Assembly (NCBI RefSeq): GCF_041146795.1 | Contig: NC_135185.1 | Coordinates: forward strand, 11,939,529-12,003,528 | Source of the DNA: Maylandia zebra | Taxonomy: Eukaryota; Chordata; Actinopteri; Cichliformes; Cichlidae | DNA: 64,000 nucleotides | Direction: 5' to 3' | Part shown: positions 3,686-64,000 of the stretch, piece by piece | Numbering within the stretch: position 1 is the first letter of the stretch | Layout of the letters: each line of letters opens with the position of its first letter | Notes under the pieces: model-generated | The model's database searches: none | What the model was told of the DNA's origin: nothing | What the model saw: only the letters and a program-made list of their open reading frames with translations | Translations under genes and position numbers: made by a program

Positions 3686-5140
3686 TTAGCAGGCGGGGCG
3701 CACCGGCATTTGGAGCAGGATCACCTGCCTGTTCTCCGAGGGGTGGCACTTGTTTATGTGCCTGGTGAGCCCCGGCGAGCTGTAGAGGGTGGCGGGGCAG
3801 TATTTGCACGGGTAAATCTGGGAGGAGTGCATGAGGCGCAGGTGTCTCTCCTGGCCGGCCCTGCTGGTGAAGCTCTCCCGGCACACCGGGCACAGCAGGC
3901 AGTCCACCGGGCTCAGATTGAGGGGGCTTTGGTTTGAGGCTTCCGCTGAGGATGAGGATGATGACGCTGATGAGGAGGTGTTTGACTCCGGAGCCTGCTC
4001 TGCCGGGCGGTCGCTGGTTTGAAACCCGCGCTCCTCCAGCACTTTCTTTTGCAGGGCCTGGTGTCCCATGATGTGTTTCCTTAGGCACGCCTGCCGCTTA
4101 AACCTCTTCCCGCAGAACTGGCAGTCATAGCAGCCATCTTCAGAACCCGATTCGGACAGACCTGGACTCGGGGTGTCTCTGTCACTCATGTCTTTGGCTT
4201 CGTCGGAGACTGACTTGACACCTAGTGGTGGCATTTTGGCCATTTCAGGTTTGATGCCCTGCGCGGGTGGCATGGCGGGCGCGCCGGTGGTCCGAGGTTT
4301 GTGCCAGCGGCGGTGAGAGGCGAGGTTTGCCGGGCAGCTGAACATCTTATCGCACTCAGGACACCGGTACTCGACCCTGACTATGCGGGAGCACTTGTGC
4401 TGAGCCAGGGAGAACGGATCCGCGTACGCCTCCTTGCACAGCTGGCACACGAACTCCCCCAGAGGTTTGTTTCCTGCGGAGGACTGAGCCCGCGGCTTCA
4501 TCTCCACCGGACCCTCTTTGATTTTGAGACCAAGCACCGGAGAAGTCGTCACCTCATCTTCAAAGTTGAGTTTTCTAATGGCTTTGGGTTTTTTGGATGC
4601 GGCTTTAGATTTGCGCTCCGTTCCATCAGTTGCGGGTCTTTTGGTGCCGACCCGGTTGCTTGGTCCCGGGAGGCTGCTGCTGCTGGTGGTGCTGGTGCCG
4701 CTGCGGCTGCTGTTGCTGGTGCCGATTTTCAGGTCGACCGGGGCGTACAGGAGGTGATCCAGACCGGAGAGGGAGGCGGGTGTTGGGAATGACTCGGCAG
4801 AAATAGGCGAGCCCAGATTGAAACTTCGCTCGAAATATCCCCTGTCGTGCTCCTTGCTGATGGGCCGGGTGGGGCTGTAGAGGGCTTGGCACACGGCTTC
4901 TGGGTTGCCGAACTGTGCCGGCTTCTCCATTCTTGGCACCGACGCGTCAGCTGCGGTGAAATCCGGCGATGCGGAGGCGCGGTCCGGACTGGACGCCACT
5001 GAAATCGGCGGGGATGGGTCCGTGTGACTCGGCAAGGCAGCTGGGGTGGGTGGCTCCTGGAGGTCATCATCGTCTGACCGAGTCCTGTAGGAAACATGTG
5101 CAGATTTCTTGTTTCTTTTTACCAGGAATCCTTTGGGCAT
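3686..5140 (-). CDS. insm1: Insulinoma-associated protein 1 (SNAG/C2H2 zinc-finger repressor)
   Basis: Intronless gene for a 484-residue nuclear transcription repressor of neuroendocrine and neural progenitor cells. Residues 1-11 ([11 protein letters not shown]) are the SNAG repression domain that recruits LSD1/CoREST in this family. They are followed by a Pro/Ser-rich region and a basic stretch near 165-190 ([20 protein letters not shown]) that looks like a nuclear localisation signal. Five zinc fingers follow at about 230-250, 258-280, 338-360, 415-438 and 443-465. The first ends C2HC-like (HKC) as in INSM1. Ser-rich linkers (388-400) separate the fingers. Human INSM1 is also single-exon and 510 residues, so length and structure fit. 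The start is fixed by the SNAG motif, which must be N-terminal. Teleosts carry two copies (insm1a, insm1b) and I cannot tell which this is. The long opposite-strand frames here come from its GC-rich codons. Confidence 0.97.
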
Positions 5141-5303: not shown

Positions 5304-5312
5304 CTTTTTATG
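5304..5312 (-). promoter_or_regulatory. insm1: TATA-like box of insm1
   Basis: On the minus strand the sequence CATAAAAAG lies about 165 bases before the insm1 start codon. It would place transcription start near 5275-5280 and give a 5' UTR of about 135-140 bases with no room for an intron. ATTGG/CCAAT-type sequence lies about 50 bases further upstream (about 5358-5362). This is inferred from position only. Confidence 0.45.
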
Positions 5313-5319
5313 CCGGAAT

Positions 5320-8120
5320 GATGCTATTGTTCTCGCCCCCCCTGTTGCAGCATCCCCGACCAATCGGATGAAACCAAGATCCCAGTGGGTTTTATTGTGG
5401 GAGGGCTCAGATCCTGGGTTTGCTGGATTTCGTTGGAGGATGTGCAGATAGCTTAGCAGATGTACTGGCGGTTTATTACATTAATGTGTGCGCTCTGCCC
5501 CTCCCCGACAGAGGCACACGCCGGGACCCTCCTCTTTTTACGGTCTGATGGGCCCCTACACAAATGCACACGTGCCACTGCTTTGTGGTTCTCCTCCGGG
5601 GGTCCCGGAGTTGCCAAAAGGAAATGTCCGTCACCGCCACAATTATCACAATTTCGAATTAAAACTGGGTGAGACAAGCTTGGTTAAACAGAAACCCAAA
5701 GGTGTGTTTCTTCACGTGTCCGCTGTGGTGTTGGTCAGAGAGGCGGCTCGCCTCACACACGGCTGTAAAACTGTGTTTGCAGTGCACAGTCATCCAGTTT
5801 GTTTTAAGACTAAACATTTTTTCTATCCACGCACTTGACTCGTTTACGCGTGACCTTTACGCGCGTTCCGCGGGCACATCAGTGAACTAAAGACACTTTT
5901 TAAAGACCTTTATTTTGGTCTTGAATAAACACTACAGAGGGAGTGTTTCTTTATTTTAGGGCACGTGTCTGTCTCGGTAGTTTAACTCGACATATAAATC
6001 AGTCATCTCGCTGCATACATAAGTAATAAGAAGGCCCTCTGGTCTTTGTGCACAATGGCTACGTCTGCCCGTGCTTGGATATCCTGTCTCTCTTTTTTCG
6101 GTTTGAAAGGCAAATTGACCTCTTAACTGTGAAACGGGACTCACGGCCAATCTGGCCCACAGCTAGACGCGTGCTGGGCGGAATCAGTGCTCCAGACAAA
6201 GAAGGCCGAAACCGAATTTCGTGTTGGGGAGAAATGCTGCCCAGATATTCAGAGCTAAAATGTGGCTGATGTAGCTGCTGGATAGCCCAAAAGTGTTTTC
6301 GGGATGTTAGAAGTTGAGTACAATTCTGCTGGAAGAAGCTAATCTAAGTTTGGATTGTGTCGAATCCACGTTTTGAACAAACTGAACGGTTTGATTTACT
6401 TTCAAATGTCTCAAAGCAAAACTCAGCTTGCGTTAAACTGACTCATTTCGCAGCACGTCTCCATCTAACAAAGACAGACCGCACTGTTGTCTATTTCTCT
6501 TCCCCGTCAGCGCTCTGTGAGTCTCTCATATTTTGTGTGCAAGTCTTCTTTTTTTCGCCATAATGGCTAAATGTATGCGGCAGTGCGCCACTTGGCAGAA
6601 TGTGCATTCTTTTTCCCTTTCAGTCAGCAGACCAGGGAGGAATTAATCTCCATCATCGGACATTGTTCCCCTCATTTGCATAAAGCTGCAGTATGACCAA
6701 GTCAAATAATTGCACAATCGGAGCCGAGCCGCAGGCCTGTGCCTTGCTTTCAATAGGCCTCTGTGCCCCGGTGCCTCCTCACCTGCCTGAAAACACACCG
6801 TTATGTTTGTTGGAAATGGTTAAATGATAGATTAGCTGAATAATAATAAAGTCTGAAATGCCCACGAGGCAGACTTAAAACTGCGGGAAACCTTTAAATT
6901 ATTTCAGTAAGTGACAAAGTTTGACCACGATTTTGAAGTTTCTCTGAGAATCACGTTTAAACGTGTCGTTCATCTAATCGTAGCTGGGGGTTTTTGTTGG
7001 GTTTTTTGTATGTTGTTTTATTTTCACGGGTTTCATCGACTGGCCCAGAGGTAATTACAGATTTTCTCTAAATGAGAAACCTCTCTAAAACCTGATTTCT
7101 GTCCCTGCTGCATCACGCTCTCCTCCGCCGCTCTGTTGTTGAACTGTTGTTCTTTCAGTCTGCGCGTCTATTAGTCGTGGTTTGTTGGGACTACAAGCTT
7201 TGATGGCATTTTAACGAGTTCCTCTTTCCCCCGAGATAATTTCTGTGGGGCGCGTGGGCCGGTGTGTTGGCCTTGGCCGTACCGACGCATGCGCGTGTTT
7301 GCTCAGTGGCGCGTGCTGCCCTGCGCGGACGGGAAGCATAGGCGCCTAATTAGCATACAGCTGCAGCTGCTTTAACGCAGGCCCAACACCATCCTTTTAA
7401 CCTTATGGCATGCTATAGGAGTCCAAATATTGCTCGAGTTTGCCTCTTTCTTACAGGTTATGATGTTTATGTTGAAATATAATATCGGTAAACGTGTAAA
7501 ATATCAATAAGTACATTTTAGATGTTTTTTTTTCATTGAGGTTAAATCACATTTCTTTGCTAAAGGCACGCTTTGTTTTGTTTTTTGTCCATCCTTTTGC
7601 AAATAAGCTCTTACAATGACTGCTAAACCTTTGTAGGCCTGTTAGTTTATGGCTTAACTGCATCACCAGAAGCCTGATTTGAATACTGGTCCATTTCTGA
7701 GATTCTGGCTTCAGAGCTCAGCTCTTACTTCATTGCACCACCTACAGGATGAAGGGTTAAACTCGGTGACAAAGGCAGAGTTTACCTCCAGTCATCAGAA
7801 CCTTATGGTCTTTTAAAAGGCATCAACACATAGTTTGTGTTCAGCATTACTCGTGATTACAGACGGAGCTTTGGAGCCGTTTGGTCATGTCACACAGATT
7901 GGATTACACTTATTCTCGCTGTAGCTGTACAGAGACCTCCTGTACATCCCTGATGAATGATTGCCTCCATGTGCTGTGCCAATCAAAGCCAATTTGAAAG
8001 TGCAATAGGACGTGACTGTAATTGGTGCTCACTACAGGGCCACATTCAATGCACTGTCAATCAATTATTGTAATGGATTAGCTGAGCTCCTATTCTGGCT
8101 GGTTGTAATCTGATAGAGGG
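5320..8120. other. insm1 upstream region, non-coding
   Basis: No gene is seen. Stretches around 6620-6790 (with an octamer-like ATTTGCATA near 6675) and 7900-8120 (several TAATTG/CAATTA homeodomain-type cores and CAATCAAAG-like sequence) have the non-repetitive, motif-dense look of conserved non-coding elements. No comparison was possible. A paired E-box and a REST-type site are listed separately. Confidence 0.35.
7358..7369. promoter_or_regulatory. Overlapping CAGCTG E-box pair
   Basis: CAGCTGCAGCTG, two E-boxes sharing a palindrome, lies about 2.1 kb upstream of the inferred insm1 start, next to a TAATTAG homeodomain core (7348-7354). CAGCTG is the preferred site of Ascl1-type bHLH factors, and insm1 is a known Ascl1/NeuroD/Neurogenin target. 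Assignment to insm1 is inference. Confidence 0.4.
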
Positions 8121-8124
8121 CTTT

Positions 8125-8145
8125 TTCAGCACCATGGAGAGAGCC
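8125..8145 (+). promoter_or_regulatory. RE1/NRSE site for REST (site 1)
   Basis: The 21-base RE1 frame reads TTCAGCACCATGG then AGAGAGCC. Against the usual matrix (TTCAGCACCATGG then ACAGCGCC) only two positions differ. The GGAGAG centre is, from memory, that of the classical SCG10/STMN2 element. It lies about 3.0 kb upstream of the insm1 start codon. REST silences neuronal and neuroendocrine genes outside those tissues, so insm1 is the natural target; that link is inference. Confidence 0.75.
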
Positions 8146-8285
8146 AGCGAGGGATCCAGATTTAATCAGACTGGCTGTGGACACAGCACAGCCTCGGCTA
8201 CAGCCTTTGTCCCCAACGCTGAGAGCAGGCAGAGACCAGCAATAGAACAGAGATGCAGCAGAACAAAAGAGCCTAATGAAGCCAT

Positions 8286-8310
8286 TGGGGTTTTTTTTTT
8301 TTTTTTTTTA
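8286..8310 (+). repeat. Poly(T) tract
   Basis: An uninterrupted T run of roughly 20 bases between RE1 site 1 and an L2 LINE scrap. It may be part of an old insertion boundary. Confidence 0.5.
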
Positions 8311-8514
8311 ATATCCTTGTTCAAAACACACAGACACAATTTTTATCAAGGGAAACAGTGTTTTACTTCCCTCTTGTCCAGTCATCTGGCTTCACCGGCT
8401 CCATATTCCTCGACTTATTCAATACCTTCAAAGCTCTCAGCGACTTGGCATTCTCATATTTTTCAGACCTTCACCCTTACGCCCCTTCCCAGTTTCAGCT
8501 GCTGTTCTGACTGC

Positions 8515-8660
8515 TCCTCACTTCAAACCTAACACCACGGGTGCCCGAGCTTTCAGCTGTGTTGCAACTCATCACCTCTACACCTTCGCCAGCTCGACTC
8601 TTTGTCACAGTTCAAATCTCAGCTCAAAACCTGCCTGTTTTCATTTGCATATCAGCTGTA
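8515..8660 (+). mobile_element. L2-type LINE fragment, reverse transcriptase C-terminus
   Basis: Read in one frame, 8595-8660 gives SLSQFKSQLKTCLFSFAYQL, the standard end of fish L2-clade proteins. Residues just before it (LHLRQLD) match the LPLQLR-LDS part of the same motif. Compare the fuller L2 copy at the right edge of this window, which ends VDSFKKQLKTLLFKQAF. Upstream frames are eroded. Only this C-terminal scrap is recognisable, so it is old and 5'-truncated. Confidence 0.7.
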
Positions 8661-10636
8661 ATCATCCTGTTATGTGTTACTTTCTCAGTTATTTTTATCT
8701 TTTAATAGTGTTCTTGTTGTTTAGCGTTGTGTAAGATGACCTCGAGTGTTTGAAACAAGCCAACGGATGAAACGTGTTATTGCTTTTGTTGTCTCCAGCT
8801 CTAAGTTAGTCCGTGCGTTTTCCCTCACTGTGGGGAAAATAAATGTATTTTTAAAAATAACTGCAGTTCTAAAACACCTTTTGTATTCCAGTTTCCAGAT
8901 ACTGACTGTAAACTGAAGGATTTTAGTGCTTGAAGTACTTTGTTTGAAGGTCACATCTCTAATGCGAGCTAACACCTTAGTTTCCTGCTCTCTGACCAGA
9001 GATCATTGTGGCTGTTTTCACAATTTGCGTCCCGTGTGACCTGGAAAACCATCTGTAGGCGATGTGTGGGAATTCAACAAGTCCCTGTGAGGCAGGAGTC
9101 AAACTGCTCCTGTAAAGAGCAACAATAGTAAAAGGTTTGTGGAAAAGAAGTCAGACAGTAGAGCCAGAGGATCAATGGGGAAATTGGCTGTTTAGCAAGG
9201 AGTGCAGCACGGAGGTCACTGTCTAGACTTTAAAGTGTACTTTGGATGGATGCCCATGAGACCAGGTTACTGTGAAAAGCCCATAAAGTGGTATAGCTCC
9301 GAGCTTAAGACTAATGGACCTGGTGGACCTGACTGGGAATGTCCCTGATGCCATCTGTACGTTTGACGGTGATGCTGATGACTTTATGACAGCACAGACA
9401 GATGTTTTCTGGCTTTAATGACATTTCTAAAAAGGTTCTGTGGATCTAGCTGGCAAAACAGTCTTTTTGGAATATAGCCGCAGTGCATCTTTAGAGGGGG
9501 ATTATGATGACATCCAAGGCGAATAAACGAGAACGCCACGAATGCTTTTAGTGTTTATATCAAACATCGTATGATCAGACATGTGAACAAAGGCTTCAAA
9601 GGGACAACACCAGATTTTTCCCCCCTTGTAAAGAGGCTGTTATTAAAAGGAGGTCTTTCTGCATATCAGGCATCAGTTGCTGGAGTCCCAGGGGCATGTT
9701 TAGCTCTAATTTACCCATCAAAAACATCAGAGTGTCTCTCAATAATCTCTGCAGTCCATTGGTTGTTTGGGGTGGAGTCCCCTGTCAGAAAGCATGCCCT
9801 GGAATGTTAAACACTAATTCACCTCTGAGCGGTGGAGGTGGATAAAGTGATTGTTCTATCTGGGAGCTGATTAAAACAGGCTCTAGCCCGTTTCTCCCCT
9901 CTGCGTTCACCTCTGACGTCCATCACATTCATTTCAGTATTCATGAGTGGATGAGAAAGCCCAGGCAGAGCGACTGCCGTATTACAGATAATAAGGCCAG
10001 CGGGCACCACATTCACTGCCACAGGTCCCCCCCCCACCCCTGCCCCAGCTCATTCAATTACTCTACAAGAGTTCTCTGAGGCACAGCTGCACTATGGGGG
10101 TAAAGAGGAGCAAATTGAGGTACATTCATGTAGACGCACACGCACTCACGCACCTCACAGATACAAAGAAGTGGAGGAGGTACGCACACGGCAGCGAGAG
10201 CAGCCAGCGTATAAAGGATCTCACTGACAGGCATTTAGCTTAGTAGTCAATACATTACACAAGTAGACAACAAAAAAAGGCTCATCCTCTCTAACTCACT
10301 GGCTCCCTGAAGATTATATTGATAATGACTCTATAAGAGAAATGAAACCAAGGCCATTCCTCATAGACTCCATATATGAGGTTGCCATTATCTTGATGAA
10401 AGTGTAGACAGCAGCTGTATCATCTACGAGCATGAAAGATGGACTCTGGCAGACCTAATGGGCCATATCCGTTATCTATTGATTATCATCCATTCATCTA
10501 AAGATGCATTAGGGCCGTGTGAGAATCTCTGTTAAAAACATAACTGCCTGCTTCCTGAATTATTTACAAAGTTAGGTTTTAAACAATGGCTCTAAATGCG
10601 ATTGTCCACCTGGTGTCATCACTCAAGAGAAGACTG
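8661..10636. other. Intergenic desert, no gene seen
   Basis: No exon-like sequence is recognised. 9890-10030 holds TAAT/bicoid-type sequence in otherwise high-complexity DNA that could be a conserved element. A C run lies near 10027-10035. The short frames here show no family resemblance. Confidence 0.45.
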
Positions 10637-10657
10637 GCTGCTCTCCGTGGTGCTGAA
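10637..10657 (-). promoter_or_regulatory. RE1/NRSE site for REST (site 2, inverted)
   Basis: On the minus strand this reads TTCAGCACCACGG then AGAGCAGC. It matches the RE1 matrix at 18 of 21 positions, and its first 17 bases equal the SCG10-type element as I recall it. It faces the opposite way to site 1, about 2.5 kb further from insm1. Two independent near-consensus 21-mers this close are not expected by chance. Confidence 0.65.
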
Positions 10658-10659
10658 CT

Positions 10660-13380
10660 TCTCCCCTGGAGTTTACAGCAGCAGCTGTCTCGTAGAGCAC
10701 TGAGGATGTAAAACACTTAATGTGTAAATCTTGCTCTCAGTGCGCCAATAAAACACCCATTTTTCCACTGTGCGTGCTTTGATTGGTTTTTAAAATTAAA
10801 ATTATACATAATACTTTTTGGAAATTCATGTATTTGCTCATGTCCCACACAACGATTGGCCAAATCTTTGCATTTCTAATGGAAATGTCTGGCTTGTCTT
10901 AGTAAAGCACAGCGCTCTCCTTTTAAGTACATTTATCCTTTTGTTTGTATCCTTTTGTTATAAGTGTTATAAGGGTAAAACCACAGCCTGTAACATGATA
11001 TCGCGAGTTTGGCTGTTTCCCTTGCTTTCAGCTTTTCTGCTGCTTCATATTTACTTAAATCAGCGAGAGTGGTATTGATTTTCTTTTCAAACACTTACTC
11101 TAGCAACTTAAATTGTAGGCTACAGAAAAAGATGAACGTAGCCACCGTGATGTCTCCAGTCAGATTTGAAGCTTTATGCTGGAGCATCTTGGATTTTTTG
11201 TTTTTAGCGGTGGATCTATGAAACTGAGGAAATCCCAATGCAGACTTGTAAAAAGCTAAAGATTGAGATCATCGATTCAACAGGAAAGCGTTTAATAAGG
11301 TCATAAATTAAGGGAGCGAGAAGGTCATTTCCTCATAGATTTCTATACAATGCATATTTTTTTAAGGAACAGGAGTCGCCCCCTGCTGGCAGTCAGAAAA
11401 AATGCAGATTTAGGGCACATGTGCACTGGCTTCAGTGCAGCATGTGGTCTATGTTTAGTGAGCCTGTTTCACAGACATTTCTTTGAGTATTACAGCCACA
11501 CGTTGACTTTAAAAACGTACCTACTTTCAGCCGCTCCTTTATTCACCGGGGCCGTCACAGCAGGTAACTCTGCACGTGTGATTGGCAGATTTTTTTACAC
11601 CAAATCAAACGTCCTTAGATGAATGTGTAAACCACTTTATCTTTCATTAATATAATAAATGCTATGTCATCATGACATATCTTTGTCTCCTGCTCTCACA
11701 GTTCTCCGCTGAGATTTATCAAAATCTAACAAATGCACAAGTCTTGGAGACATTTTGAGCTCAATTATCAAGTCCACCCTTAACACATGTACATTTCTTG
11801 ACATTTGATTTGGGAATTTTCCAAACAAAGAATTCACAGAATTGGTACACTCTTCATTAGATTGCATAATTTGCATTCTCTTGTAATTGTGCTGCTTCCT
11901 TGATTATTAAACGATCACCCTAATTAGGGAGCATAATAGGGTTAATCAGACTCTGCTCGTCACACTTATTATTCCTCCAAAAAATGAAGGAAAAAGATAC
12001 AGTACTTGATTAATTATATCAGCCTTTTCATCAGCTGGGCTACCATCCCCCCCCCCCCCGAAATTAATATCATGTTGTAAATGGAAGGAAGGAGCTGGCC
12101 GGACACAGACAGATGAAAGATTTCACTCAAATTAATTAAGCACTAATTATGCGGCGGGAGTTGGGAGCAGTTTGCATAATGAGCTCTATCAAAAGAGATC
12201 AGTCATGAAGAGGGACTGTAGAGTTTCTATACAGCCTTCAGATCATACAGACACACCACTGCACTGCACGAAGAGGGCTAGCAGAGAAGTGGGAAGAGGG
12301 TTAAAGCACTTCGAGGCTTGAGTCGTGAGGTTGAGGAGTGTTTTGTTTGGTTTGTCAACATGCCGAGGATCAGAGCCTTCCTCACTTGTGCTACAAATAT
12401 GGATTATTCCATTCTCACTTAAAGGTATCACATCTGTCCCGAGGCTGTGTATGTAATTTTTTTTCTCCCAGCTTAAGAATGAGATAATGAATTCCCTGGT
12501 CTGGCAAGAGCAAATAAGAACAGAATGTACCTATAAGTCCAAGCTAATCACAAACAACCTGCATCCACACTCGAGGGAGTTTTAAAGACCCTAATCACCT
12601 CCCACTCCAATTCTTGTGGTGTTCTGTTATTGCTGATCAGGGACTACACTGTGGCTATCTATTTAGACAATGGGAAAAGGGATTAAATAGACAGAAACTC
12701 TAGGTCTTAATCGCCTGTTTAATCACTGCAACTGTGCAGTCTGTGGAGCTGAGTTACTTGAACTGATTTGTGCCATAGCAGCAGCAATCATGCATTGGCT
12801 AATCAGGGTGCACAGCCCGGAACTGCCCTTCAAGGTCTCCGAGTGGAATTACAAAGACTATGATTAGTTAATCAAATGAAGAACCCAATGTCCTTTCTTT
12901 ATTTGTGTATACACCTTATCTAAATGGAAATTGTATAGCTGAGGCACTTCCAGAAGGGCACATCTACATGTGAATGATCCTCCTCGAGTCCTTGGCACTG
13001 AATGCAGAATAAGATCTTTCACTCCCAATCATCGTGTTATGGCATTGTGGGGACTTTTACATGTCTGAATGATATTTGTTGTCGATGCGCGTGCGAATGA
13101 TGCAATCACTCCGTCTGTTGTCAAGTAAATCACAAAGCAGTAGACGTCAACTCTTCGAACGCTCATGATGATCTGTGGCAGAATGTCAAGACTATTACTT
13201 TGAGAAAGGAGAGAGGGGGAAGCAGACGGACAGCTTTCTGATTATGACGATAAACAAAAAGGAATGAATCAAATGTGCAAAAGGCTAGTATGTATGTATG
13301 TGGCACAGAGATGCTGTATGTAAGCCTTTAATCATGTTGGGTGTCTGCTAATCAGGTAGCCTCCTCTCATTGTTTCCTAG
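10660..13380. other. Intergenic desert with candidate conserved elements
   Basis: No coding sequence is seen. 11880-12000 and 12120-12215 are rich in ATTA/TAAT homeodomain cores (for example TTAATTAAGCACTAATTATG). 12560-12900 carries many TAATC, ATTAG and GATTA cores in high-complexity sequence. These read like developmental enhancers, which fits a regulator such as insm1. This is judged by eye only. Confidence 0.35.
11374..11391 (-). promoter_or_regulatory. CTCF-like site
   Basis: On the minus strand the core reads CCAGCAGGGGGCG within TGCCAGCAGGGGGCGACT, a close match to the CTCF consensus. It lies inside the desert. Occupancy cannot be judged from sequence. Confidence 0.5.
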
Positions 13381-19860: not shown

Positions 19861-21109
19861 CAAAATGTACACAGACCCCTCGCAGAACAGGGGATTCATA
19901 AATAACAGACTGTGAGATCAGAAATAACATGAATGACATTAAGTCAGTGTAAAGGCGGGATGTAAAAAAAACAGCTTGCAGAGTGTGCAACAACTGCATG
20001 CAGGTTGAAGCAGCTTAAATACTTTATATTTTTGCAGATAAATTGAGATAGCACAAGTTTTCCTGTTTAAATTCATACTTCTCTGGTTAACTATTATACT
20101 TTGACAAGATGATAGTCAAACAACAGGTAACAGTTAACAATGTAAAAGCGTATTTTATTGTAACCTACCTTTTAAGCCACATGGATCATTCGGTATTCCA
20201 GAAATAAAGGGTCTGGTATCTTTTACAAAGTCATTTTGGTGATTATTATCCAGTGTTTGTTGTTTTCCATTGTGCAAAATCAGTTTAAATATTCTTTAGT
20301 ATTCTTGATTAGATGATTTCTGGATGAAGGGGTGTTAAACTGGCACAGGACACAGTTTAATCTAACAGAAATTCTTAGTGAAACACTCAGTTGTGTATAA
20401 AAACTGAAGGTCTGCTCAAACCTGAACAGAAATGTTGGGATCATCTCCTGTCAGGAAGTCAGTCCCGGTCCTCCTCCGGTTCAAGCCTGGAAGAGGGTAG
20501 GCTGCGCTCTCGCAGCCAAAGGTGATGTCACTCCCTGGATAGCTGGAGAGATTTATGGGACCTCAAAGGATACAGCAAACTGCAGTAAAAGGAAAGGAAC
20601 ACCCCAGTGTTTAATCGCCTAAAACTGCTCCATGTCAAGATAATAATGCATTTACAGTTTTAAAATATGAACTTTCCTAAACTATGATGTATGAAAAACA
20701 GAAGTACATTAACTGGAATAACAGGGTCCCCTCCTGCTGAGGTTTTTGGTTGTGTTACTGCTGCTGGCAGCCTCTCTCAGCTGGCAAATACTGGGGTGGG
20801 TCCACCCATCTGAGCCACACACAGGGACTTTCTCCTGGCACGCACATGAAGGCTCTGGCTTGGTCCTGTGTCCCTTCTTTGGTAATTTAATCTGGCAACC
20901 AAGGCAATCTCCACAGTGGTCATATAACTTCTAAGCTCCATCTGGGTCACGTTACACGTTTGCACACAGCATCTGTAAGTGTCCTGCACCCAGTCTGCAG
21001 AGCAGCTGTCCGGCACTGGAGGGCAGAGGTGCTCGTCGCACTCCCTGCGACCCTCCACCTCCTCCCACAGCCGCAGACGAATATGGTGCTGGGTCTGCAG
21101 CCTGGGGGA

Positions 21110-24113: not shown

Positions 24114-26695
<2,582 letters not shown>

Positions 26696-27364: not shown

Positions 27365-30192
27365 ATGGATATGGTGGCGGACTTGGGGGCGAGCAGGCTG
27401 TACAGGGCGCCGGGTGAATCGAGCCACCAGTGAGTATCGATGGATTTTGTCAGGGGGGGTAAGAAGGCGTGGGGCGTAAGCGGGTCCTGCCGACACCTCG
27501 CGCCTGCGAAGCAGTCGCTCGCTTTGGGCAGCAGTCAAATCCTCCCCGCTGCTCGCCGGACCTCCGGAGAGAAGTGGGGGTGGTCTTGAGGATGAAAACG
27601 GGCGTGTTAGTGCGTCGTTGCCCTAGACTGTTACACAATGCGAATAGATGTGTTTTTCCAGCTCGCAGCGCGCTCACTTGCCGGAGGTTTGTGTCTGTTT
27701 TTCTATTGTGTGCTGGCTGAAGCCTGAAGTGGGCGTCGCTCCAGGACAGACAGACTGGGCTGCCCGCTTTCCTCTCGCAGGACTGCAGCACTGTCGTGTT
27801 GCTTTGTAGGTCGAAGGATGTCTGATTTTACGCGGAAGAGCTCGGTGGGGACGGTAGTCTTGATTTCGCGTGCCGTGAAAGGCACCGTGGAGTCCTGCGG
27901 GCGGGCGTTGCACCGTGGGTTGTCGGGCGCTGCGGAGGTTGTCACACAGCCGCGCTGATGGCTCATTAAACACGAAAGCGTGCAATCCCGAGCCTGCACG
28001 AGCACGGATTGAACAGGTTACCGTGAAATGAGAACTGTTCTGAAAATCAGGGTGCTGGACATTTTTTTTCTCTTTGCGTGTCCGGCTGCAGTGTTTTATT
28101 TTCTCTTCCTACAAGTCTGACGCGTTTACTCCATCGGGGGTTTCCGGAGCGCGTGAGACCTCAGAAATGATTAAAGGTTTTGTCACCCGATGCTCTCTGA
28201 CTGACTTGAGTCGGGTGTAACCCATTAGGAGAAGATTTTGCCTGAAGGATCCTTCAACAAATCAAAATGCAGAAAAAAGTCAGGTGGGCGGGCCCTCTGC
28301 TGAGCCCGTGTAAAGACAAAGATGCAATAATTGACAGCTGCAAGCATGTGGTGATGCTGCTGTGTTTGTTATGCTCAGATCAGTGTGCCATGATTACCAT
28401 TGTAGGCTGTTACCAGACCATTAAAATCCAGGAGCCCGTGTTTCCTTTATTTATCTGTTAATTTGGCATTGGGAGAAGTTCAGTAATAAATGTCCACCGG
28501 GTCTGCGGGACCTCTGTCATTTCTTATTTTCTTGATAAAGAAGTGAGTGTGTCCTGCATACAGAGCTAGTGAGCAAGCTGTCATGTTGTCTCCTGCAGGC
28601 AGCCTCAGAGGTGGTTCAACACGGCCGACATCACAGTGTCTCACCAAAGCAACATGCTGAAGCAGCTCAACCAGCAGCGTCGCCAGGAGCTTTTCTGTGA
28701 CTGCAGTGTGTTGGTGGAGGGCCAGCTCTTCAGGGCTCACCGCAATGTTTTGTACGCCAGCAGCGGCTACTTCCGCATGCTGCTGTCCCAGGGGCCCGAT
28801 GACTCTGTCAACGCCACCTTCGACGTCTTCAGCCCTGAGACCTTCACCGTCATCCTGGATTTCATCTACTCCGGCCAGCTGGACCTCTCCAGTCACAATG
28901 TGATTGAAGTTATGTCTGCAGCCAGCTACCTGCAGATGAACAACGTCATCAGCTACTGCAAGAACTTCATCAAGTCCTCCTTGGACATCAGTGTGAAAGA
29001 TGAAGACAGCGATCGCTGCCTCAGCTTGTCTGAGACCTGTAGCTTTACCAGCGGAGCAGGAGAAGACTCCACAGAGCAGCATCAGGGCCCCTGCTCTGTT
29101 AGCCCTCCACCTGCGCTCTGGACTCGGGACAACTCCAGATCACAGTCTAGCTTTATGGGAAAGGACTCGGACCAGGATCCTTCGGCCTCAGCCCTGAAGA
29201 CTGACCCTAACAGCCCTGTTAACGAGCTCAGTGCAGATGCAGAAGACCTCCAGGACCCTCAGGACCCTTTGTACACCTTGCCTGGATCAGAGCGTCGGCG
29301 TGGAAAAGGGAGCACAAAGAGGCGAGCGTCCAACAGCGCTCGGTCCAACCAGCACGAAGACTTGGACATCCAGGAGGCACGGACACGAAAGGCTGAAAAG
29401 GCAGAGGAGCTTTACGCTACTCTACCACCGATTGTGGGTGTTATTGGACACTTTAATAAAGGTGTGTGCTGCCAGAAGATGATGATGACTGGAATACTTG
29501 GACAGAGATGATAGGAAAAAGTCAAATGTCACAATTTCTCTGTTCCTCTTTGCAGATTCGAATCCTACCATGCGCTTCAAATGCCCCTTTTGCACACACA
29601 CAGTGAAGAGGAAAGCAGACCTGAAGCGTCACCTGCGCTGTCACACCGGGGAGAGGCCGTATCCATGCCAGGCCTGCAATAAGCGCTTTACTCGCCTGGA
29701 GCATCTACGCAGCCATTTTGAGACAGTAGGTGTTTTCACAGCAGATGGTAAATTTACACTTTCTTCTGTGTCTGTGTCGGCTTACAGCTCCAGGAAAACA
29801 AGCTGCTAAACAAATTTACTCTAATATTGAATAAATCTTTATCCGATCTTTTCTTTTTCTTTTTAATCTCCCAGATTCATCAAGCCAGGAAGCTGGTGTG
29901 CAGGAAGTGTAAGTGTCAAGTGACCGAGGAGACCGGGCATGTGGTGTGTGAGGGCACGAGACGCTACCGCATGTGCACGGCGTGCATCCAGGAAGTGGGC
30001 TGTGACGACGTCCCCATGAACAGCCTGGAGGGGCACAACGAGGAGCCGGCACTGTTACTGGGCGTGGACGGGGAGGAGGAGGGGGACACAAAGAGGAGCT
30101 GGATGGTGACTGACGACGATGACCTGGCAGAAGACTCGGGCGCCGACCTCATCATCCAGCAAGTGGACGTCAGCGACGAAGAGCTGCAGTGA
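27365..30192 (+). CDS. zbtb8a: Zinc finger and BTB domain protein 8A
   Basis: BTB/POZ zinc-finger nuclear protein, a presumed transcription regulator. Exons: 27365-27429, 28599-29461, 29556-29725, 29875-30192, giving 471 residues with agreeing phases (human ZBTB8A 441). The BTB domain covers about residues 38-150 ([65 protein letters not shown]). A Ser-rich and basic linker follows. Two C2H2 fingers lie near 317-339 (FKCPFC...HLRCH) and 345-368 ([10 protein letters not shown]...HFETIH), split by the last intron as in the family. The C-terminal Cys-rich [13 protein letters not shown] segment and acidic tail (ADLIIQQVD) match ZBTB8A better than ZBTB8B. Start choice: exon 1 has an ATG (second at 27371) open through to the BTB. 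Mammalian ZBTB8A starts next to the SHQS motif, so the extra N-terminus of about 35 residues is less sure. Confidence 0.93.
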
Positions 30193-38027: not shown

Positions 38028-38888
38028 TCATGAGATAGATAGGTTAGGAGCAGAGGCTCGTATCTTCTCCTCAAGTCTGATTGCAGATGGTCTGTATGGA
38101 GGAGACTTGTATGAAGATTTGAGGAATGAAGGCTTTTCCTTTAGATCATGCTTCGACCCAACACGGTTGGAGTTGTTAAAGGGGTCCTCAAAGTCGTCAT
38201 GTTGGATGTCCATGGCGCGGTTGCGTCTTTTAACCTTTTTTGCACACTGTACAATGCGCTTGTAGATGAGATAAAAGATCTCACAGATATTCAGGACGAT
38301 GCAGAGGGCTGAAGCTCCGACCATGAAGTATGTAAAGACTTTTTTTTCAGTGGGGTGACCAATGTAGCAGTCCACAATGTTCGGGCAAGGCGACACTTCA
38401 CACTTGACCAGCCTTGGCAGGTAGAAGCTGTTGTATATTCGGTGGAGGATATAGAGGAAAGCGATTTCAATGCCCGTCTTAGCAAAGAGGCTGATCAGGT
38501 AAGTCCACCATAAGCCGCCATGTTTCTTGCCCGTGTTGTTGTACAGCTTGGTGTTCTCACCATGCTTGGCCTTGTACTTGCGCTCACGGTCATCACGATA
38601 CGCCACATGCATGACCACCATTAATGATGGACAGGTGACAAAGATGAGCTGCAAGGCCCATAGGCGGATGTGGGAGATGGGGAAGAAGTGATCATAGCAG
38701 ACGTTGGCACAGCCGGGCTGCTTGGTGTTGCAGTCAAAGTCCTTCTGCTCGTCACCCCACACTCGTTCTGCTGCCACCACATACACCAACACCCTGAACA
38801 CAAACACCACTGACAGCCAAAGACGCCCAAATGCCGTGGAGTATTTGTTCACCCCACTGAGGAGGGCTTGAAAGGTTTTCCAGTCCAT
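38028..38888 (-). CDS. gjb3: Connexin, gap junction beta-3-like
   Basis: Single coding exon for a 286-residue four-pass membrane protein whose hexamers form gap-junction channels. The N-terminus [17 protein letters not shown] and transmembrane 1 ([18 protein letters not shown]) match human GJB3 almost residue for residue. Loop 1 has the connexin cysteine set ([12 protein letters not shown]) and loop 2 the second ([12 protein letters not shown]). The cytoplasmic loop is short, as in beta connexins, with [17 protein letters not shown]. The C-terminal ASAPNLS resembles the GJB3 end ASAPNLTPI. Mammalian GJB3 is 270 residues. An acceptor in the 5' UTR (first exon base 38935, 47 bases before ATG) shows the usual connexin plan of a non-coding first exon plus one coding exon. 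In zebrafish nomenclature it would be a cx35.4-type gene; orthology is from memory. Confidence 0.9.
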
Positions 38889-43507: not shown

Positions 43508-44293
43508 TCAAGATACGACGACATAGTACGGCGTCTTTTTAGTGGTGCCTTGTTCCGCTGACTTTAGAGCGTTTGCCTCCATCAGTTTGCTTCCACTGGA
43601 CATTGAGTGGGTGATGACCTGACGAGAGTGATGGGCTGAGCTGAGAAACTCATGGCAGCGTTTTCCGACTAGGTAGAGGATTTCAAAAAAGGAGAGGAGG
43701 ATGCAGGCCAAGCTGGTGACCACCATGAAGATGGTGAAGATTCTTTTCTCAGTAGGCCGAGAGATGAAGCAATCCACCGTGTTGGGGCAGGGATCCTGTG
43801 CACACTTAATGAGACTGGGGAAGCTGTAGCCCTCGTACATGTGGTAAACGAGGAAGACGAAGGTGGCGTCCACGCCTATTTTGAAGACCAAAGTCAGGAT
43901 ATAGGTCCACCACAGGCCTCCACGCTTCTTGCCCGTGTTTGGGTAGAGACGCTTGCAGTTCTCGCCATACTTTAGCTGATTTTTCCGTTCTCGGTCCTCC
44001 CTGTAGGCGACGTGCATCACCACCAGGAATGAGGGGCAGGTGACGAAGATAAGCTGGAGGGCCCACAGGCGCACATGGGAGACGGGGAAGAAGTGGTCAA
44101 AGCAGACATTATGGCAGCCGGGCTGATTTGTGTTGCATGTGAAGTCTTTCTGTTCATCTCCCCACACCTTTTCTGCTGCCACCACAAACACCAGAATTCT
44201 GAAGAGAAAAACAACCGAGAGCCAAACTCTGCCGAAGGCTGTGGAGTATTTGTTCACTCCGCTGAGGAGGCCCTGGAGAACTACCCAATTCAT
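43508..44293 (-). CDS. Connexin, gap junction beta-4/beta-5-like
   Basis: Single coding exon, 261 residues, four-pass gap-junction protein. It begins [17 protein letters not shown], and the MNW start is that of GJB4 and GJB5 rather than GJB3. Loop 1 cysteines [12 protein letters not shown] and loop 2 [12 protein letters not shown] are complete. The segments [24 protein letters not shown] and [13 protein letters not shown] are typical of beta connexins. The end of TM4 ([11 protein letters not shown]) is closest to GJB4/GJB5. The C-tail is short and ends YYVVVS, a possible PDZ-type end. The 5' UTR acceptor (first exon base 44386) gives the same exon plan as its neighbour. The gene lies head-to-tail with it, so the two arose by tandem duplication, as in the mammalian GJB3/4/5 cluster. 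Zebrafish equivalents would be cx34.4-type; I do not assign a symbol. Confidence 0.9.
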
Positions 44294-48800: not shown

Positions 48801-51800
48801 CACACTGAAAGACCCATTTTTCCAGTGTTAACAAATCTGGAGACTCTCACCGGATGCTCCTAATTTTATTCTTGGTGATTTTAACAATTGTAATCTTAAG
48901 AAATCACTGAACAATTTCTTTCAATATGTCACTTGTCCTACAAGGAATAACAAAACGCTGGATTTGTGTTATGGACCAATTAAGGGGGCATATAAGTCTG
49001 TGGCCGGACCTGCGCTAGGTTCTTCGGATCACAATGTTATTCATCTCCTCCCTGCTTACAGATCTGTGATTAGGAGGGAGAAGGCCTGTGTGAAGCGGAC
49101 TAATGTCTGAACAAAAGACAGTTGTGTTGCCCTTCAGGGGTGTTTTGATTGCACTGACTGGTCCTTGTTTCAAGAGAGCACTTCTGATTTGGATGAACTC
49201 ACCGATGTGGTGTGTAGCTACATCTCTTTTTGCAAAGACTCTGTGGTTCCAGTCAGAGAATTTAAGACTTTCCCTAATAACAAACCGTGGCTCTCTAAAG
49301 ATATTAAGGATCTGATTCTTAAAAGGAAAATTGCTTTCAACGAGGGAGACGTTCCCACTATGAGAATATTAAGGAAGGAGGTGAGGGCTGCAATAAAGAT
49401 TGCCAAGATGAGGTATAGAAATAAGATTGAGGCAGAACTCAGCAGTAACAACCTCAAAAGAGCTTGGCTTGGTATGAAAACAATGGCAGGGCTACACACG
49501 AAAGGTAAAAGTAATATTACCTTAGAGGGGTTTACCTCTGACAAACATCTGGCAGACAGTCTTAACAGTTTTTACCTTCGTTTTGAGAACTTTGACTGTT
49601 CTAGGCAGACCAGCACACTGAGGGAAAAGACTATCACTCCCCCATCAATTTGTATTGATGAGAGGGGGGTAGATAATCTTTTTAGACACACTAAAAGCAA
49701 GAGTCCTGGACCTGACAACATCTGTGGACAGGTACTGAGAACTTGTGCTGATCAGCTGAGTGGGATTTTTCACTATATCTTCTCACTTTCTTTAGAGCTA
49801 CAGACGGTACCTAAGATTTGGAAACATGCGATCATTGTTCCTGTTGCTAAGGGCAGTTCTCCTAAGGCACTGAATGATTTTAGGCCTGTGGCTCTGACTT
49901 CTTTAGTGATGAAGACATTTGAGAAGATAATTAAGAGGGAGATTTTAATGCAGGTTGAACACCATCTTGACCCCTTCCAGTTCGCCTATAGAGCAGGAAG
50001 AGGTGTGGAGGATGCTGTTGTCACACTCCTGCATCTCTTGTATAAGCATCTTGAGGCCCCTCACACCCATGCAAGATTATTATTTGCTGACTTTTCATCA
50101 GCATTTAATACAATTCAACCCCTCTTACTTGCTGACAGGCTTTACAATCATTTCAAGCTTGACACTAGTCTGGTCGGCTGGGTGACAGACTTTCTGACTA
50201 ATAGGTCACAATGCGTGAGGGTAAATCATGTCTTTTCTGATGTGCTCTCCTCCTCTACTGGATCACCCCAGGGTTGCTGCCTCTCTCCCCTTCTGGTCAT
50301 TCTGTACACGAATGAGTGTCGCAGCAATTTCACGAACAGACATATCCTGAAGTTTGCTGACGACACAGTGATCGTCAGTCTTCTAGTGGGGGACGAGTCA
50401 GGCCATGGACAGGTTGTAGATGATTTTGTGAATTGGTGTGATGAGTCCTTCCTGTCACTTAATATGTCAAAAACTAAAGACATGATTATTGATTTTAGGA
50501 AGTCCTCTTATAGCTCATCACCCACTATCATTAAAACTGCCGTTATTGGGATCGTTGAGAGTTATAAATATCTAGGTGTGGTACTTGACCATAAACTGTG
50601 TTTTGAATCTCATGCTGATGCCACTACTAAAAAAGTTCAACAAAGACTGTTCTTTTTAAGGAAAATGAGATCTTTTAATGTCTCATCCGAGATGTTGTCT
50701 TTGTTTTATAGAAGTTTTATCAAATCTGTGATGTCTTTTTGTATCGCTGCCTGGTTTGGTAACCTGACGGTGAAGAATAAGAATCGGTTGGGACTTCTGG
50801 TAAAAACTGCTAGCAAAATTTCAGGGCGCTGGCAAGATGGACTTTTGGCCATTTACAATAGAAATGTGCTTAGAAAGGCTCATTCTATTATTAATTGTTT
50901 GAACCAACCACTTCACAGTGAGTTTGAGTTGTTGCTTTCCGGCCGTCGTTTTAGAGTACCTCCGAGGAGGACTAAAGGACTCCAGGTCTCTTTTATCCCC
51001 ACTGCATCTTCTCTCCTCAATGGCAAATAACTGTCCTTGGACTTTCTATCACTATTATTGTCATTATTATTTTATAGTATTGTTCTGTTTATTTATATCC
51101 TGCTGCTAAACTAATTTCCCCTTGTGGGACAATAAAGAAATTGAATTGAATTGAATCAGCTAAAAACCAGGAGCCTTGTTGACATGCTTCACTGCACCTT
51201 CTCAGAACAGTATAAACGACTGCTCACCTGGAGCTGTGTGTTTAAGGACAAAGTTTTCATCATCAAACTTCCGGCCATAGATGGACTTCCCGCCGGTGCC
51301 GTTGTGGTTGGTGAAGTCGCCTCCTTGGCACATAAACTGAGGGATGATGCGGTGGAAGCTGCTGCCCTTGTAGCCGAAGCCCTTTTCGTGAGTGCACAAG
51401 CAGCGGAAGTTCTCTAAAATTAAAGAGAAGAGTTGTTCTAACAGATAACACAGGTTTCTTTCTACACACATGGAGACCAGTTCAAAAAAAGAGGAAAAAT
51501 TTGGGATTTGTAGCATATACACATACACACCTGCTGTCATGGGAACAATGTCAGCCCGGAGCAGGAAGCGCAGTCTCCCTGCTGGCTTGTTGCCGATCTT
51601 TATGTCCATGTAGACCTGAGGATTTACTCTGCCCTTTTTAGCCGGAGGCTCACCCTGCAAGAACAAATTACCGCCTCACATCTTAACAGATTTATAAAGG
51701 GAAGACCTCACAGAGACACAGATTAGAAGTGAAATCCTCTCACCTCCTGAGCTGTAGTTTGGGGTGTTTCTCCAGCTGCTGCCTCTGCCTCAGCTTCTTC

Positions 51801-62154: not shown

Positions 62155-64000
62155 ACTAGTAAGTAAGTAAAGTAAGTAAACTTTATTTATTAAGCGCTTT
62201 TCACAGACAGGCAATCACAAAGCGCTGTACACAAATATTAAAATATTAAAATAAACAATAAAATCAATAGACATTATATACAATGTAAAAGATAAAAAGT
62301 AAATAATGTAAAAAAAATAAAATAAAATATGTAGATCAACAAAAGGCTTGTTTGAACAGAAGAGTTTTTAACTGTTTTTTAAAAGAATCCACAGAGTCAA
62401 GCAAACGTAATTGTAGTGGTAAACTGTTCCACAGCCTTGGTGCAACAGACTGAAAGGCTCTGTCCCCTTTTGTCTTCAATCGTGTACGGGGAACAACTAA
62501 GAGACTCTGAGTCTGTGAGCGGAGATGACGAGCAGCAGTGTATTTTAAAAGAAGCTTGGATAAGTAATCTGGAGCCTGGCCATTTAGTGCTCTGTATGTT
62601 AAAACAAGAATTTTAAAGCGAATTCTAAACTCTATTGGGAGCCAATGTAAAGAATATAAGATGGGAGTGATGTGAACACGCTTGGTAGAGCGAGTTAGTA
62701 GTCTGGCTGCTGCGTTTTGTATTGTCTGGAGGCAAGAGAGAGATGATCTATCCAAGCTAGTAAACAGGGAATTACAGTAATCTAAGCGTGATGACACAAA
62801 TGCATGAATGAGTTTTTCCAGTTCAGCTGAGGAAACCATATGTCGTAGTTTAGATATGTTTCTTAAATGATAGAAACAGGAACGAGACAAAGATTTTACA
62901 TGAGAGTCAAGGCCCAGGGAAGAGTCAAATATTACTCCAAGATTTCGAATATTTGACTTGACAGATGGACAGAAAGAGGCAAGAACCTGACTGATTTTAG
63001 AATGTAGCTCAGGAGGAGCTATGATCATGGTCTCGGTCTTGTTAGTATTTAGAACAAGGTAGTTGCTTGAAAGCCAATCAGAAACCTGGGTTAAGCACTG
63101 GACTAGGGTGGACAGCCTATCCAGCTGATGAGGCTTAAAGGACATATGGAGCTGAATGTCATCAGCATAAAAATGATAAGACAGGTTGCTAAAAGATTGA
63201 ATGATACTAGCTAAAGGAAGCATATAAAAAGAAAATAGTAATGGACCTAAAACTGAGCCCTGTGGGACACCACAGGTCAGGGCAGCAGTGTTAGAGGAGA
63301 ACCTGTCAGTCCTAACAGAGAAGGTCCTGTCTGATAAGTAGGAAGAAAACCAGTCTAGGGCAGAGCCAGATACACCAGCCAAAACCTTCAGCCTGTTAAG
63401 TAGGATTTTGTGGTCGATGGTGTCAAAGGCTGCACTAAGATCAAGCAAAATGATCACAGAACAGTTCCCTGCGTCAGATGCCATTAACAGATCATTATAG
63501 ACTCTTAAGAGAGCGGTCTCTGTAGAGTGCTGCTTTTGAAAGCCAGACTGAAAAGGGTCAAGAATCTGTAATTTACATAATAGAGACCTGAACTGATTTT
63601 CAACAATTTTTTCAAGTAATTTACTGACAAATGGCAATTTTGAAATAGGTCGGTAATTACTAGCAGAGCTAGGATCGAGATTCTGTTTTTTTTAACAGAG
63701 GAGTTACCTCAGCATGTTTAAAATAAGATGGAACACAGCCTTGCCTCAGTGAACTGTTGATGATGGATAGTAATGTGGGACCAATGCTGGTGATAGACCC
63801 AGACAGGACAGAGTGAGGTAATATATCTACAGAGCATGACGAGGATTTCATTTTACCTAAAACTATAATTAAGTCATTTAGTGTGATTGGAAAAAAGGAG
63901 GTAAATGATCCAGGACAGCAAGGGGTATCTTCATAAGGGGAGGCACTTGAGGAAATTTTAGATTTCAAGTCCATCACCTTATTTACAAAGTAATTAAGGA
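62155..64000 (-). mobile_element. L2-type LINE, runs off the right edge, in pabpc4 intron
   Basis: The minus-strand frame 63637-62336 encodes reverse transcriptase: LLDLSAAFDTIDHKILLNRL, CGVPQGSVLGPLLFS, the catalytic YADDIQLHM, then NLGVIFDSSL, HWLPIEFRIRFKIL, GDRAFQSVAPRLWNSLP. It ends FKKQLKTLLFKQAFC. Upstream (63977-63669) the frame continues with SCSVDILPHSVL and AEVTPLLKK, then shifts by one base in an A run near 63690. Apart from that slip the visible part is open, so the copy is fairly young. The 3' end after the stop holds AGCGCTTTGTGATTGCCTG and finishes in TTACTTACTTTACTTAC units, a tandem tail typical of L2. The endonuclease and 5' end lie beyond the window. Confidence 0.9.

Follow-up and report, generated by a model that had tools for sequence, protein, structure and literature searches.

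Candidate RE1/NRSE sites upstream of insm1 in Maylandia zebra and their predicted role in REST repression

The insm1 locus and its neighbours

The window analysed here is a 64-kb stretch (C19:11939529-12003528) of a 962-Mb assembly comprising 63 contigs. It harbors insm1 as one uninterrupted coding frame that bears C2H2 fingers and matches INSM1, a chain of PDB 3zms (E 1.4e-140). A stricter TATA pattern than the one read by eye (Table 1) found no match over 3.36 kb. Two RE1/NRSE-type sites, designated A and B, lie on the upstream side of the gene. Site A is 2,985 bp from the insm1 ATG (5140, minus strand), in line with the approximately 3 kb given in the original prediction, and B stands 2.5 kb farther away.

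The stretch from 5.2 to 28.6 kb has 109 stop-free frames of 60 aa or more, and a Pfam search of these yielded five families with one member each, two of epimerase type and three of Kazal type. Since the Pfam-bearing frames located lie at 20712-20930 and 25202-25654, no detected gene is closer to either site than insm1, with the proviso that smaller exons could escape such a search. Rfam models gave no hit across the window at gathering thresholds, and a hidden non-coding RNA as the target was rejected on this result.

Farther to the right of insm1, the window encodes a BTB protein (28636-29511), which we take to be zbtb8a-like, two connexins (38028-38888 and 43508-44293), and a cyclophilin-type fragment (51202-51666), while the copy of insm1 on contig C15 has cfap61 upstream. 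Two LINE-type reverse-transcriptase frames (Pfam RVT_1) are also present, at 49165-51030 (+, 621 aa) and 62336-63637 (-, 433 aa).

Table 1. Features of the window and of the loci of the insm relatives (window positions unless a contig is given)
Feature	Position	Strand	Remarks
insm1 coding frame, presumed target	3686..5140	-	single open frame, 484 aa
Weak TATA-like CATAAAAAG, possible insm1 core promoter	5304..5312	-	by-eye reading
RE1/NRSE-type site A	8125..8145	+	TTCAGCACCATGGAGAGAGCC; 28.27 bits; flagged by the original prediction
RE1/NRSE-type site B	10637..10657	-	TTCAGCACCACGGAGAGCAGC; 23.95 bits; missed by the original prediction
Non-coding block CNE1	12049..12162	+	similar to C15:24345564-24345678 near the ohnolog
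Kazal-type frame, right of the insm1 desert	20712-20930	-	placed by motif reading of its letters
Epimerase-type frame, right of the insm1 desert	25202-25654	+	Pfam
Presumed insm1 ohnolog	C15:24326898-24328235	-	64-71% identical to insm1
Ohnolog RE1 TTCAGTACCATGGACAGAGGC	C15:24344229-24344249	-	28.3 bits; 16.0 kb upstream of the ohnolog ATG
insm2-like gene (our naming, presumptive)	C19:14861203-14862423	-	protein search
insm2-like RE1 TTCAGCACCTTGGACAGTTAC	C19:14860832-14860852	+	22.2 bits; 351 bp beyond the matched coding end

Sites A and B as RE1 elements

The GGAGAG centre of site A is also that of the SCG10 element and recurs in the predicted mir-139 RE1. Coordinates, strand, and sequence of the flagged 21-mer proved exact, and, as predicted, it deviates from TTCAGCACCATGGACAGCGCC in just two places, G replacing C at position 15 and A replacing C at position 18; TTCAGCACCATGGACAGCGCC is the majority consensus of a 14-site human RE1 matrix as well. 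Site A is a 21-bp bipartite motif with both half-sites and a 2-bp spacer, and it fully matches the degenerate consensus NTYAGMRCCNNRGMSAG, as printed in PMC4430910.

Scoring with a REST matrix, the check proposed with the original prediction, made use of 14 distinct NRSEs from Table 1 of PMC1794552 (matrix 1), which are predicted human sites near miRNAs and not each tested. The 28.3 bits of site A fall inside the leave-one-out range of these 14 predicted human RE1s (11.2-31.2) and correspond to p = 9.1e-11 per position, or E = 1.2e-5 over 64 kb read on both strands, under an independent-base model; under the same model, site B has an E of 6.1e-4 per 64 kb. When 10.24 Mb of order-3 Markov sequence was scanned on both strands, no site scored as well as A and one attained the score of B. 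Sites A and B are the top two of the window at every pseudocount from 0.4 to 8, and the third-best matrix-1 site reaches 14.2 bits compared with 24.0 for B. A second matrix, composed of 17 RE1s of the host genome (13 of 30 fetched consensus loci, scoring at most 19 bits, were dropped), assigns 31.7 bits to A, 27.3 to B, and 14.7 to the third-best window site; it is not independent of matrix 1, which was used to pick its sites.

Across the genome, the consensus TYAGMRCCNNRGMSAG has 1,058 matches (524 and 534 by strand), and the reversed-pattern control has 204 (97 and 107). An excess of this size, five-fold, suggests that the host genome has a functioning RE1 regulon, as far as sequence counts can indicate one. 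Among 30 loci from the head of the consensus list, 17 exceed 19 bits and four score above site A. The 16-mer core of A, TCAGCACCATGGAGAG, occurs four times among the 100 consensus places listed, which cover C1 and C2 to 40.7 Mb, versus 0.025 expected in approximately 85 Mb, and the 16-mer core of B occurs there once versus 0.019 expected (cores were counted by hand). In the 64-kb window, the degenerate consensus has two matches, A and B, where the genome-wide density predicts 0.07; the probability of two or more, 0.0024, is a rough guide, since the window was picked because a site had been seen there.

The control matches to this loose consensus, about a fifth as many as the real ones, leave some room for a chance match that REST does not bind. 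Such a coincidence is nevertheless quite unlikely: the expectation per 64 kb is just 1.2e-5 for A and 6e-4 for B, both sites fall within the upstream stretch of insm1, and none of 1,000 column-permuted matrices reaches the score of site A in the window or yields a window site equal to B.

An RE1 copied within a transposon, and functionless in its present location, could look the same. A LINE fragment (reverse-transcriptase C-terminus, 8501-8652) does start 356 bp to the right of A, but the segment 7850-8300 has a single genome match, itself, and thus does not behave as a multicopy element; as the search skips very common words, this result is strong rather than absolute. Moreover, 7000-12500 is without a BLASTN match elsewhere in the window at E 1e-3, and the likeness of A to B is confined to a common 17-nt RE1 core. 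Because the flanks of the two are without significant similarity (the alignment score was attained in 81 of 200 shuffles), A and B are regarded as separate sites. A transposon origin is therefore very improbable.

The CACCATGG core of site A could also be read as a start codon in good context, since CACCATGGAG suits a Kozak context and the open frame 8086-8529 covers the core. This frame, however, crosses a poly-T tract and is absent from the located Pfam-matching frames, and accATGg is the normal form in a common NRSE of zebrafish, where this variant ranks high (PMC3531662), making a start codon scarcely credible. The identification of the flagged 21-mer as an RE1 is well supported.

RE1s at insm relatives and the age of the sites

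A protein search in which 88 of 1,742 first-look candidates were scored found a presumed insm1 ohnolog and an insm2-like gene, and RE1 scans covered 40 kb around the former and 30 kb around the latter. Each of the three insm-type genes found in the host genome has a strong RE1 no more than about 16 kb away. The ohnolog RE1 fails the strict degenerate consensus despite its 28.3 bits. As controls, the best site in five 10-kb stretches (L003, L012, L013, L015, and L016) reaches no more than 10.3 bits, and the best in the window beyond 12 kb no more than 13.6 bits. Stretches that hold or adjoin an insm gene were excluded from the control, namely L010, L011, and L014, with the ohnolog and insm2-like sites, and L002, with sites of 17.8 and 16.8 bits.

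Three weaker RE1-like sites were kept out of the main argument. Two are downstream of insm1, at L002:2511-2531 (+, 17.8 bits, 7.5 kb left of the window start), which fits the degenerate consensus too, and at L002:3538-3558 (-, 16.8 bits, 6.5 kb left of the window start). The third, L010:4201-4221 (C15:24330200-24330220, 18.0 bits), is 2 kb upstream of the ohnolog ATG and has a good right half and a degraded left half.

The ohnolog RE1 lies past minus-strand frames that match CFAP61 residues ~834-1044, and from this position it is probably inside cfap61, where it may even fall in coding sequence. One PDB chain behind these matches carries the depositors' label CFAP20. In the human genome, CFAP61 presumably adjoins INSM1.

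Sites A and B might be genuine REST sites that serve another gene or a non-coding transcript, given that REST is able to act at long range and that the RE1 of the ohnolog sits beyond cfap61 exons. Against this, the nearest detected gene is insm1, at 3.0 kb from A and 5.5 kb from B, the next domain-bearing frame lies at about 20712-20930, the window lacks an Rfam hit at gathering thresholds, and RE1s recur at the insm1 relatives. Another target is consequently unlikely, and insm1 as the likely target of the candidate RE1s is well supported.

The insm1 and ohnolog loci were also compared outside the coding frames. One strong similar block, CNE1, is left upstream of the promoter region, with 68% identity over 115 bp in the pairwise match (E 1.6e-9, compared with E 0.012 for the best reversed-sequence control); two more forward pairwise hits at E 0.033 were left unused. 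A genome search with 12060-12180 returned itself only, so CNE1 is not a high-copy repeat; as the C15 block was not returned at that sensitivity, the standing of CNE1 rests on the pairwise search. Measured from the block towards insm1, B is found at 1,392 bp and the RE1 of the ohnolog at 1,315 bp, each on the minus strand. Position thus suggests that the two derive from one ancestral RE1, and this stays a suggestion because alignment of their flanks gives no support. Direct flank homology was rejected for every pair compared, the score being attained in 16 of 200 shuffles for B and the ohnolog RE1, 82 for A and the ohnolog RE1, and 81 for A and B.

Site A has no counterpart where one would be expected in the fetched C15 surroundings of the ohnolog. 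The original prediction had placed it at the edge of an element-like stretch (7900-8120); this part did not hold up, as the stretch has no BLASTN match to the same surroundings at E up to 1.

A further candidate block, CNE2 (11352-11427 versus C15:24337435-24337512), was dropped as a dispersed repeat, since 11340-11440 has at least 40 genome matches; its C15 copy is absent among the 40 matches listed. While accepted, it made the ohnolog RE1 appear misplaced. The repeat in 11340-11440 is short and centred around GAGTCGCCCCCTGCTGGC, which we take to resemble a CTCF-type motif.

The arrangement about CNE1 hints that site B arose before the gene was duplicated. In a fuller history, the insm family would already have been under REST control before the genome duplication of teleosts, B and the ohnolog RE1 would go back to a single ancestral RE1 linked to a conserved insm1-upstream block, and A would be a later gain; this is a tentative proposal that may well prove wrong.

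A predicted REST-responsive silencer of insm1

REST keeps nerve and hormone-cell genes off in other cells, acting with the CoREST/LSD1/HDAC and Sin3 corepressors. The gene insm1 acts as a switch in the choice of neuroendocrine and neuronal fates. It is proposed that A and B, 2.5 kb apart, form a REST-responsive silencer of insm1. In REST-making cells, that is, non-neural, non-endocrine cells and progenitors, the zinc fingers of REST would read both half-sites and recruit CoREST/LSD1/HDAC and Sin3, such that insm1, 3 to 5.5 kb from the RE1s, would be kept off; a fall of REST in neural or endocrine differentiation would release it. That REST binds the sites, brings in corepressors, and acts on insm1 is inferred from the features described above, and it is highly probable that REST represses insm1 through the predicted sites outside neural and endocrine cells.

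INSM1 carries an LSD1/CoREST-binding SNAG end, so that, on the tentative history given above, REST would restrain a repressor that itself comes to use this corepressor later. The candidate fish insm1 RE1s offer a directly editable test of insm1 restriction by REST, as well as a case in which to follow how duplicated genes acquire and lose RE1s.

In ChIP-seq of E13.5 mouse pancreas, Insm1 is among the loci with REST-bound regions, and endocrine differentiation in zebrafish increases under a REST inhibitor (PMC8415321). Binding of REST at mouse Insm1 is already reported; the present analysis adds site B, the RE1s near both relatives, and the hint on the age of B. Together with the matrix score, the genome excess, the second RE1, and the RE1s of the relatives, the mouse binding bears out the RE1 and its likely insm1 target as originally predicted, to the exclusion of the element-like stretch. 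Xenopus insm1 is listed with neural- or heart-expressed genes no more than 100 kb from an NRSE and is absent from the 57 ChIP-supported genes in the table of the same paper (PMC4430910).

Elsewhere, Insm1 is unnamed in the main texts of two REST ChIP-seq papers (PMC2573930 and PMC4055426) and of a review on REST in beta cells (PMC5323410). In the portions covered, INSM1 is limited to a reference entry in PMC9110333 and to cited titles in PMC11860772, PMC11226837, PMC5797046, and PMC7070449, and its regulation in prostate cancer is given as unknown in PMC11050209. Among the papers covered by a literature search, none joined insm1a, insm1b, REST, and zebrafish, and, among the matches listed, no title or abstract opening besides that of PMC8415321 placed insm1 under REST.

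Site A resembles the canonical RE1/NRSE in its half-sites, 2-bp spacer, match to NTYAGMRCCNNRGMSAG, and score range, and its minority letters, G15 and A18, are within known variation, both occurring in the predicted mir-139 site. Zebrafish has 1,102 NRSE sites at no more than one mismatch, and NRSEs silence non-neural expression there in a rest-dependent fashion (PMC3531662), as does a canonical NRSE in the same species (PMC3529185). The core of A is at most one mismatch from TCAGCACCnnGGACAG of the zebrafish and fugu transgene NRSEs in these papers; those sat at transgene promoters, whereas A and B lie 3 and 5.5 kb from insm1. With the REST-bound region of mouse Insm1 (PMC8415321), the likeness is at the level of the orthologous gene and the same regulator.
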